The position numbers and the translations under genes are program-made. The notes below the pieces were generated by a model, which saw only the letters and a list, made by a program, of their open reading frames with translations, was not told the DNA's origin and did no database searches. DNA of 52,561 nucleotides from Halorubrum sp. Hd13 (GTDB lineage: Archaea > Halobacteriota > Halobacteria > Halobacteriales > Haloferacaceae): positions 41,327 to 93,887 of the forward strand of contig NZ_NHOY01000042.1 in assembly GCF_002252755.1 (NCBI RefSeq). The letters are read 5' to 3'. Shown here piece by piece: positions 2,954 to 41,337 of the stretch (the stretch's first letter is position 1; every line of letters starts with the position of its first letter).

Positions 2954-3094
2954 ATGGAGGTGTATCAACCAGAATTTCAGCACGCAGGATTACAAGAATT
3001 TGGGTGTGGCCCAGACCGCCACCAAACCACGGAAAGAGTAGCTACTAGCCAACCTCTGCTTGACTCCACCAATCAAACGACAACCTACGCATGA
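2954..3094 (+). CDS. Small hydrophilic ORF, 46 aa
   Basis: This ORF starts at ATG 2954 and stops at TGA 3092-3094. The stop overlaps the next ATG in the classical ATGA arrangement, which suggests translational coupling with the following small membrane protein. The product is Gln/Thr/Glu-rich and hydrophilic, with one Cys. A TATA-like stretch (ATACATATAT, 2914-2923) sits about 30 nt upstream, matching haloarchaeal promoters with very short leaders. I recognise no family. The ATGA overlap and promoter position are the evidence that it is real; its small size keeps confidence low. Confidence 0.4.
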   Translation: MEVYQPEFQHAGLQEFGCGPDRHQTTERVATSQPLLDSTNQTTTYA

Positions 3095-3249
3095 CAAACG
3101 TAATTAATCAAATTATTGCGACTGTCGTACTGATCGGACTACTAGCCTTCTGGATTGCCGGTTGGGCAATCTACGGGCAACCGTTAGGTGCCGTACCGTT
3201 CGCGTTTTGCGATATCCTTGGAATGGATTACTTTTCTGTCTGTAAATAA
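3091..3249 (+). CDS. Small single-span membrane protein, 52 aa
   Basis: ATG 3091 to TAA 3247-3249. Residues 8-28 (IIATVVLIGLLAFWIAGWAIY) form one clear transmembrane helix, followed by a short tail with Cys40 and Cys51. It overlaps the preceding 46-codon ORF by four bases. No known family is recognised. In AT-rich haloarchaeal islands such tiny membrane proteins often come from viruses or plasmids, but that is inference from context. Confidence 0.5.
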   Translation: MTNVINQIIATVVLIGLLAFWIAGWAIYGQPLGAVPFAFCDILGMDYFSVCK

Positions 3250-3458
3250 CAACACAGAGCAACAATATCTACTCTACCCTCTGGAACAATATTTTGCGTA
3301 AGTCGTTGCTGACTCGCTTGGTTTATACTCTATCCATATTTTGCACATTGCCCCTGGATAGTAAGCAACTCAGTAGACCGAGATACAAATCTCCTAGATC
3401 AACTAGACCGGATTACCTTTCGGTGTTTATTGATCTCAAAATCACATTACTTCTCTAA

Positions 3459-4187
3459 TCAGCGCATCAGCTCCCCGCCGTTCACGTTCAGCGTCTCGCC
3501 CGTGACGAATCCCGCGTCCCGGAAGTAGGCGGCCGCGTCGGCGATGTCCTCGGGCTGGCCGTACCGGTCGACGGGGATCGCGGCCAACTCCTCGCGCTTC
3601 TCCTCGGGCGTCCGGTCGCCCGTCATGTCCGTCTCCACGTGGCCGGGGGCGATCGCGTTCACCCGTATCTCGGGCGCGAAGTCGCCGGCGTGGCTCCGGG
3701 TGAGCGAGAGGAGTGCCCCCTTCGAGGCGGCGTAGTGGCACTCGACCGGCGCGCCGGTGTGCGCGAGGATGGAGGAGACGTTCGTCACCGACGGGCCGTC
3801 CTCCGACTCCCGGAGGTGCGGGAGCGCCGCCTTCGTGACGTTGAACGCGGAGTTGACGTTGACGTCCATGACCCGGTCGAAGTCGTCGGGACCGAGGTCC
3901 GCGGTGTACACGTGCTGGTCGATCCCGGCGTTGTTGACGACGTGGTCGACCCCGCCGAGGGCGTCGGCGGCGGTCTCCACGAGGTGGGCCGCCGCGTCGG
4001 GGTCCGAGACGTCGGCGCCTACGGCGACCGCCGCTTGCCCCCGGTCGCGGACCGCGTCGGCGACGGCCGCGGCGGCCTCGTCGCTGGTGCGGTAGTTGAC
4101 CGCGACGTCGTAGCCGTCGTCCGCGAACCGAAGCGCGATCGCTCGCCCGATACCCCTGGAGGACCCCGTCACGAGTGCGGCCGGCAT
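3459..4187 (-). CDS. SDR-family 3-oxoacyl-ACP reductase-like enzyme (FabG-like)
   Basis: The product has 242 residues, the normal length for a classical short-chain dehydrogenase. The cofactor motif TGSSRGIG is at 7-14 and NNAG at 85-88. The catalytic Ser is at 138/139, Tyr152 and Lys156 lie in YAASK, and VNAIAPGHVETDM follows. Arg12 after the glycine motif and NYR at 31-33 suggest NADP(H). Archaea lack a standard fatty-acid synthase, so the true substrate may be another 3-oxo/hydroxy acyl or alcohol compound. The gene is the last of a minus-strand series; the methyltransferase upstream ends 64 nt before this start. Confidence 0.9.
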   Translation of the reverse strand: MPAALVTGSSRGIGRAIALRFADDGYDVAVNYRTSDEAAAAVADAVRDRGQAAVAVGADVSDPDAAAHLVETAADALGGVDHVVNNAGIDQHVYTADLGPDDFDRVMDVNVNSAFNVTKAALPHLRESEDGPSVTNVSSILAHTGAPVECHYAASKGALLSLTRSHAGDFAPEIRVNAIAPGHVETDMTGDRTPEEKREELAAIPVDRYGQPEDIADAAAYFRDAGFVTGETLNVNGGELMR

Positions 4188-39456: not shown

Positions 39457-39927
39457 TCAGTTCCCCGTGAAGTCGATCCGCGAGTCGCCGCTGTCGCCGT
39501 CGCGGCGCGAGTGGCCGAGCCTGACGAACTCGTAGGCGTCGTCGGCGAGGTAGACGCCGTCGCCGTCGACGGTCACGTCGACGCCCTCCAGCACGGCGCC
39601 CTCGCAGGGGCCGAAGTTGCAGTAGCCGCCGTCGGCCTCGAAGGTGGCGCCGTGCTTCTGACAGAACACCTCGCCGTTCCGCACGAAGGCCCCGTCGTCC
39701 TTGTCGATGCGCACGTCGGTCCAGTGCTGACAGTAGTTGCGGAACGCGCGCACCTCGCCGGTCGCCCGCGTGAGGATCGCCTCCGCCTCGGGGGCGCCGT
39801 CCTCTGATTCGCCCACGTCGCCCTCGCCGTCGTCGACACTCTCGGGGTCGACGGGCTGCAGCGTCACGAGCAGCGTGCTGTCCTCGGGAACCTCCTCGAC
39901 GGCGGCGATTCGACGGTCCGCGTTCAT
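39457..39927 (-). CDS. Rieske [2Fe-2S] domain protein
   Basis: The product has 156 residues from ATG 39927. The Rieske motif is complete: Cys66-x-His68 in NYCQHW and Cys89-x2-His92 in FCQKHG. It is a short ferredoxin-like version without a signal or anchor, so probably a cytosolic electron carrier, perhaps for an oxygenase; no partner oxygenase is adjacent. Residues 31-48 are an acidic insert. The long upstream open frame reads across the repeat element and was rejected. Confidence 0.9.
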   Translation of the reverse strand: MNADRRIAAVEEVPEDSTLLVTLQPVDPESVDDGEGDVGESEDGAPEAEAILTRATGEVRAFRNYCQHWTDVRIDKDDGAFVRNGEVFCQKHGATFEADGGYCNFGPCEGAVLEGVDVTVDGDGVYLADDAYEFVRLGHSRRDGDSGDSRIDFTGN

Positions 39928-40143
39928 AGGTGTTGGAAGGATAGGGCGGGTTTGAACGCTGTGATACCGGCGGGGATCAGACCGGGCCCTCGGATATCGT
40001 CGACCGGATACCGGCGGAGAATCACCCCGAAGCCCCAGCCGCTCGCTTATAAATCGGTGACGCCGCGATGACCGCCTCCGAAGCCCCAGCCGCTCGGTCG
40101 TATGTGGTTGACAGCAGCTCATCGACGAACACAGCCAAAGCCC

Positions 40144-40240
40144 CAGCCGCGAGGGCGGCGTACGCTCGCTGCGCTCCTCACTCGGTCGCTCTCGCTCCCT
40201 CGTTGCGGTGCTTTCGTCGCCTACGCCGCCCTCGCGGCTG
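40144..40240. repeat. Long inverted repeat (19-bp perfect arms)
   Basis: Left arm CAGCCGCGAGGGCGGCGTA (40144-40162) is the reverse complement of 40222-40240. With three mismatches the pairing extends to 40137 and 40247 (AAAG...CTTT). Confidence 0.85.
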
Positions 40241-40298
40241 CCCCTTTGAGCCCCCACCCGGCCGCACGGCACCGCAGCCTCACGCCTCCCCAGCCTCG

Positions 40299-40328
40299 TC
40301 GGCTCGGCGTTTACAAACGCCGAGCCGA
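40299..40328. repeat. 30-bp near-perfect palindrome
   Basis: TCGGCTCGGCGTTT, then AC, then AAACGCCGAGCCGA. A very stable hairpin in either strand; it could terminate transcription of pabC (minus strand, stop at 40426). Confidence 0.85.
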
Positions 40329-40425
40329 CTCCCTCGCGCGTGCTCCTCGCGCCCGAGGGGCGCTCGGAGGCACGCGCCCGCATCGCTCATTTATAAACCA
40401 GCATCGAGATCGGCCGTCGCTCGAC

Positions 40426-41337
40426 TCACAGCCGCTCGTCGTCGTAGTACCGCTCCTCCACGCGGCGGTCGAACAGCCGCGATATCAGGGTGGTGAGGGG
40501 GCCCTCGACCCCGTCGCCGTCCCCGTCGACCGCGAGGCCGTCGACAGTCTCGACGGGCCGTATCTCCCACGTCGAGTTGGTGAGGAACACCTCGTCGGCC
40601 TCGCGGACCGCGTCGGGGGCGTACGTCCCCTCTTCGACCGGAATCCCCTCGTCCTCGGCGATATCGATCACTGTCCGGCGGGTGACGCCGGGGAGGATCG
40701 GCCCGTCGAGCGAGGGGGTCTTGAGGGCGGTGCCGTCGGCGAAGAAGAGGTTCGCGGTCGCCCCCTCGGCGACGTTGCCGTCGGCGTCGAGCATGAGGGC
40801 CTCGTCCGCGCCCGTGACCCGGAGTTCGAGCCGGGCCAAGATCCCGTTGAGGTAGTTGTGCGTCTTCGCGTCGGCGGGGAGCGCTCGCGAGGACGGCTTC
40901 CGCGTTTTCGTCGTCTGGACCGCGGCCGGACCGTCGTGAACCGGCTCCGAGTCCACCCCGCCTCGGGGGAGCGGCTTCGCGATCACGACGACGGTCGGGT
41001 CGACCTCCGGTTTCGGGTCGAGCGTGCCGGGCTGGACGCCGCGGGTGACCGAGAGCTTGACGTACGCGTCGGCGAGGTCGTTGGCCGCGAGCGTCTCGTC
41101 GATCCGCTCCTTCAGGTCGCCGTCCGCGAGGCCGTGGTCGAGCCCGAGCGTCTCGCAGGTGTCGGCGAGCCGCGCCGCGTGGTCGTCCCACCGGAACACC
41201 TCGCCGCCGTAGGCGCGCATCGTCTCGAAGGCGGCGTCGCCGTAGGCGAACCCGCGGTCCTCGACCGAGACGGTCGCCTCGCTCGCGGGCACGACCTCGC
41301 CGTCGACGTGATATCGGAGCGACTCTCCCTCACTCAT
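40426..41337 (-). CDS. pabC: Class IV aminotransferase / aminodeoxychorismate lyase
   Basis: The product has 303 residues of PLP fold-type IV. Catalytic Lys158 lies in DAKTHNYLN; EGATANLFF and LPGVTRR are further family signatures. Branched-chain aminotransferases and D-amino acid transaminases share the fold, but its position after pabB and pabA (8-bp overlap with pabA) strongly suggests release of pyruvate from aminodeoxychorismate to give p-aminobenzoate for folate. It is the last gene of the operon; the hairpin-rich element follows. Confidence 0.85.
   Translation of the reverse strand: MSEGESLRYHVDGEVVPASEATVSVEDRGFAYGDAAFETMRAYGGEVFRWDDHAARLADTCETLGLDHGLADGDLKERIDETLAANDLADAYVKLSVTRGVQPGTLDPKPEVDPTVVVIAKPLPRGGVDSEPVHDGPAAVQTTKTRKPSSRALPADAKTHNYLNGILARLELRVTGADEALMLDADGNVAEGATANLFFADGTALKTPSLDGPILPGVTRRTVIDIAEDEGIPVEEGTYAPDAVREADEVFLTNSTWEIRPVETVDGLAVDGDGDGVEGPLTTLISRLFDRRVEERYYDDERL

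Follow-up and report, generated by a model that had tools for sequence, protein, structure and literature searches.

The REP/BIME elements and REPINs of bacteria are hairpin-forming repeats that occur in hundreds of intergenic copies, lie 3' of genes and are long-lived in their lineages (PMC8049555, PMC3116915), and these traits are shared by the haloarchaeal element described here. The likeness extends to inverted doublets: pairs of its hairpin P3 in inverted orientation, with a steady 34-39 bp between the 5' ends, were found in several haloarchaeal families. Unlike REP/BIME elements and REPINs, the element is much larger, modular and archaeal, and its hairpins follow a tandem-GA code. Within the haloarchaea, the MITEs, PATEs and SMRs of Haloquadratum walsbyi are likewise transposase-free repeats (PMC3119063), and a subset of the present element lies in a MITE-like unit; unlike the H. 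walsbyi repeats, the copy studied here has no IS-type ends, the copies are old and vertically kept, and P3 covaries across the class.

The window, a 52,561-nucleotide stretch of Halorubrum sp. Hd13, carries the element on its minus strand at 39994-40397, as delimited with an nhmmer profile built from 39 copies. It fills the spacer between a class IV aminotransferase gene (pabC-like; 40426-41337), which ends 5' of the element, and a Rieske-domain protein gene (39457-39927), which starts 3' of it, both on the minus strand; as the preliminary description had it, this spacer holds no gene call. In our reading it is a dispersed chromosomal repeat of the REP/BIME-like kind that most likely works as folded single-stranded DNA, the strand concerned being the minus strand of the window, and that persists by gene conversion together with occasional transport by a MITE; we give this interpretation about an even chance of being right.

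Modular anatomy and a covarying fold

The profile matched 40378-40092, and two further unit matches followed at 40093-40041 and 40042-39994. Alignment of copies gave a constant order on the minus strand, beginning at the 5' border with TTATAAA (40391-40397), a motif that 55 of 68 copies have immediately upstream of the core, with one mismatch at most. It is followed by hairpin P1 (40336-40377; GCGCGTGC...GCACGCGC), which has a conserved GA/GA internal mismatch and corresponds to the third hairpin reported earlier, and by hairpin P2 (40298-40329), which is very variable between copies. The latter had been described as a 28-base palindrome; the palindrome is there, but it is larger, with 15-bp perfect arms flanking 2 bases. 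A G-rich single-stranded linker with the conserved GAGGCTGGGGAGG (40249-40297) leads to GACTCAAAGGGGC, which opens the 113-nt hairpin P3 (40136-40248). P3 has an outer stem of CAAAG-GGG-CAG..CTG-GGG-CTTTG, inward of which Watson-Crick pairs are separated by tandem GA/GA in copies class-wide, and its apex (40188-40195) reads GC-GAGA-GC in the window and is mostly a GNA triloop elsewhere. The 19-bp perfect inverted repeat with a 59-nt loop noticed previously (40144-40162 and 40222-40240) belongs to this hairpin and extends to a pair of 30-nt arms at 87%.

Beyond P3 lie tandem units of 51/57 bp (GGCTGGGGCTTTGGAGG...TTTATAAGCGAGC; 39994-40093), one to several per copy and each with a TATA-like motif, in the window the TTATAAA-like sequence at 40047-40053; the preliminary description had rightly placed such motifs near both borders. 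The three direct repeats that it listed were likewise recovered, as AAGCCCCAGCCGC at 40030-40042, 40081-40093 and 40138-40150. The BOX elements of Streptococcus pneumoniae are likewise modular, dispersed and intergenic with one module in variable repeat number; they are unrelated in sequence and architecture and belong to a host of a different domain. The G runs of the linker and the P3 rim (GGGG, GGG, GGG, GGGG) are conserved in the window (40249-40297) and in its relatives, and might fold into a G-quadruplex, given the high potassium inside these cells. A promoter role for the Rieske gene was rejected, as the motif upstream of that gene, CACAGCGTTCAAAC, recurs before orthologues with and without the element.

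The suggestion that the region is too organised for a simple spacer was borne out by the minus-strand fold of P3, which reached a z score of -7.3 with RNA parameters and -5.1 with DNA parameters and was equalled by none of 200 shuffles. Across the P3 alignment, 95.1% of cells are paired and 24 of 37 pairs are altered on both sides, whereas shifting the partner by one column reduces pairing to 28-35%. Two-sided changes fill 288 cells against 78 in shuffles, a comparison that is not a probability, because the copies are related and exchange sequence. P1 and P2 behave similarly, and in the class-wide P3 set 29 of 37 pairs are altered on both sides. As a further caveat, alignments A3-A5 were fitted to the model. 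Because constant GA/GA mismatches separate the Watson-Crick steps, the full fold is available on the minus strand only. Secondary structure is thus conserved and covarying, as in a structured non-coding RNA gene, a property that RNA and single-stranded DNA have in common.

DNA or RNA as the working form

The apex loops of P3 and the scarcity of G·U pairs favour a DNA fold, short of proof. By the rule of Hirao and colleagues, a DNA mini-hairpin is unusually stable when its loop is GNA or GNNA and its stem has at least two G-C pairs (PMC4686876). The P3 apex has the same loop types as these d(GCGAAGC)-type hairpins, likewise on a short stem of G-C pairs; the published molecules are synthetic oligonucleotides (PMC4686876), whereas the haloarchaeal loop caps a 113-nt genomic hairpin. 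Among 139 Halorubrum apex loops, 82 are GNA, 18 ANC and 28 GNNA, and outside Halorubrum the apex is GNA in 35 of 41 copies with no tetraloops. G·U accounts for 1.8-2.7% of pairs (alignments A1, A2 and A4) against 5.4% for 26 tRNAs from the same genome. Its mirror image, the A·C mismatch, nearly equals it in frequency in A1 and A4. Were the working form indeed DNA, the element would show a loop rule known from DNA being applied in nature, with covariation, and would offer a handle on a putative single-strand DNA binding system in archaea.

These same observations must be weighed against a multi-copy structured RNA, in which a minus-strand transcript would carry P1-P3 as RNA, for example as a small RNA or a 3'-end element, a reading that we consider rather unlikely. 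The strand-specific purine-rich loops, tandem G·A and two-sided covariation would suit an RNA, as would the TATA-like motifs at the borders; GNA triloops are possible in RNA too, the GC-rich background somewhat lowers G·U, and the fold of P3 is at least as significant under RNA energy parameters as under DNA ones. On the other hand, the GNRA loop makes up only 4 of the 28 Halorubrum GNNA tetraloops and is found nowhere else, G·U is low with A·C nearly as frequent, and copies are oriented without bias with respect to tandem neighbouring genes (+E+ 27, -E- 26 in the complete Halorubrum genome G022). Rfam contributes no family either, with 0 matches above the gathering threshold in the window and, in permissive mode, one chance-level hit (E 1.5). 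A likeness of P1 to signal recognition particle RNA, seen by eye, was set aside without Rfam support.

Copy number, placement and spread

A dispersed repeat had been proposed, with a genome search and a comparison of relatives as checks, and both came out in its favour. Searching the window genome with the element produced 68 alignments at no fewer than 40 separate scored places, out of 187 candidate copies, and the element is present in all 52 genomes of the genus Halorubrum. In one complete Halorubrum genome sampled as 80 stretches of 20 kb (G022; 1.6 Mb), 101 copies were counted, about 63 per Mb, which extrapolates to about 190 copies per genome. With genes called by a codon-based caller made for this analysis, none of the 101 copies lies inside a gene. 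Among gaps of at least 80 bp, copies occupy 36 of 83 convergent gaps (43%) but 8 of 244 divergent ones (p=1.5e-17), and 53 of 457 tandem gaps.

The pattern is that of REP/BIME and REPIN families, whose extragenic palindromes are dispersed and lie mostly 3' of genes. The resemblance is one of behaviour and not of membership, because the RAYT that goes with those families is missing: the Y1 (HUH; PF01797) transposase had no match in G253, G279, G172 or G227, genomes with 89, 62, 87 and at least 12 P3 copies, respectively. Y1/RAYT was accordingly rejected as the mobiliser, its presence not tracking copy number and its absence extending to these four element-rich genomes, and the absence of the known REP mobiliser weighs against our preferred interpretation. 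The same scan for Y1_Tnp is what bears on PATEs, which are recognised by near-terminal palindromes in common with IS605-type transposons. So does the balance of orientations along replichores, where a lagging-strand model might predict a bias and none significant was detected in G022 (p=0.31).

The preference for convergent gaps also bears on a host-selected site of chromosome architecture or transcription end, such as a bidirectional terminator or a topoisomerase or nucleoid binding site between convergent genes. A copy in 43% of convergent gaps and counts per 20 kb that are more even than Poisson in G022 (variance/mean 0.64, p=0.005) are in keeping with such a site, although the convergent bias could also stem from selection against promoter damage, and the element has been lost at many loci and numbers only about 5 copies in some genera; we regard this explanation as improbable. 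If the working form is instead a folded single DNA strand, the strand would become exposed during replication or repair, or where cruciforms extrude near convergent gene ends; the hairpins would then fold and be bound by a putative protein, and copies would be tolerated, or used, chiefly where two gene ends meet. A truncated element of ~93 bp of the 5' end (L101, 8062-8155) lies with several kb on both sides free of called genes, possibly an rRNA operon region.

Outside the genus, a covariance model found P3 in 216 of 292 Halobacteria genomes, representing 61 of 77 genera, and rescoring of twelve genomes returned 5 to 89 P3 matches each. In other genera, the P3 sequence is changed at most stem positions while the fold is kept. 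No phage record matched the element, viral contigs gave 25 exact 15-mer matches but no P3 by the model, and plasmids gave six matches, all weak and partial. A bolder reading, which we consider rather unlikely, is that these are vertically kept, class-wide genomic single-stranded DNA hairpins, written in a code in which tandem G·A alternates with two Watson-Crick pairs and GNA triloops form the caps; a putative haloarchaeal protein would recognise them, and the host would use them at gene ends. For this element of ~190 copies in one Halorubrum genome, present in most haloarchaeal genera tested, there is no Rfam family, and no description turned up in the open-access library searched, including by the element's sequence strings, and the passages found of the Halorubrum lacusprofundi genome papers leave it unmentioned. 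Since it supplies many long palindromes, the element also affects the assembly and annotation of these genomes.

Age, turnover and mobility

Orthologous positions and orientation are kept across the genus. At EngB-MenC, the element or a remnant was found in the same orientation in every locus with MenC beside EngB, and at EndA, from another family, P3 is kept just upstream of the gene in nine loci from several genera. P3 orthologues at EngB nonetheless resemble one another no more than random paralogues do (median 0.852 against 0.861), and two-sided changes were found there in 23 of 37 pairs. In G022, moreover, three core pairs reach 99-100% identity within homologous but more divergent flanks, and since the cores are identical while the flanks diverge, these pairs indicate conversion and not fresh insertion. 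The economical reading of old positions with swapped cores is ectopic gene conversion between resident copies. At the ArgS-aRF1 and pabC/NfeD-Rieske loci many species have the element, while in others it is missing or decayed, several decayed copies being deletions between GGCTGGGG direct repeats. In one species, the inner part of P3 at the EngB locus (L122, 1232-1351) is inverted relative to the outer stem, as though recombination between the arms had flipped it.

This history has to be set against a non-functional mobile repeat, a MITE family that a resident transposase moves and whose structure would be retained solely to serve live source copies. The earlier suggestion of a MITE-like repeat holds for part of the family: about 14 of the 101 copies in G022 show signs, on the 5' or the 3' side, of belonging to a larger MITE-like unit, and several of these have GGCTCTGTTGAAA-type ends, IS-like and inverted, which probably resemble a known haloarchaeal insertion sequence family. 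One is a type II copy near 378 kb (L075, ~3063-3700), in which such ends are accompanied by an exact 8-bp duplication, AAATCGGT; further type II copies occur in L093, L095, L098, L104, L108, L409 and L415, and near-matches in place of an exact duplication are seen at other copies of the type. A MITE can thus carry the structured core, and presence or absence of the element at the pabC/NfeD-Rieske locus also suits mobility. Most copies have no such ends, however, and the window copy is among them, with no IS-related terminal inverted repeats and only palindromic TTATAAA ends; TTATAAA stands at both ends of the element at this locus and once at an element-free orthologue (L049). Together with the conserved sites and orientations, extending to several genera at EndA, and with the three converted core pairs, this makes a purely mobile family unlikely. 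Under our preferred interpretation of a REP/BIME-like element, the family would persist through ectopic gene conversion, in which one resident element acquires the core of another, and new sites would be reached through occasional carriage inside a MITE.

Repeats were also found nested in one another. One type II MITE-like copy sits inside a TATA-containing unit of another element. In addition, a repeat of two adjacent hairpins (for example GTCGCCGGCG..CGCCGGCTGCCAGAGG..CCTCGCTGG) is inserted within hairpins of the large element in L007, L010, L027, L028, L050, L055, L075 (near 3200), L077 (at 5277 and 6309), L111, L115, L123, L132 and L162. This nested double hairpin looks like a small mobile repeat targeting palindromes, in which it is similar to SMR-A of Haloquadratum walsbyi (PMC3119063).
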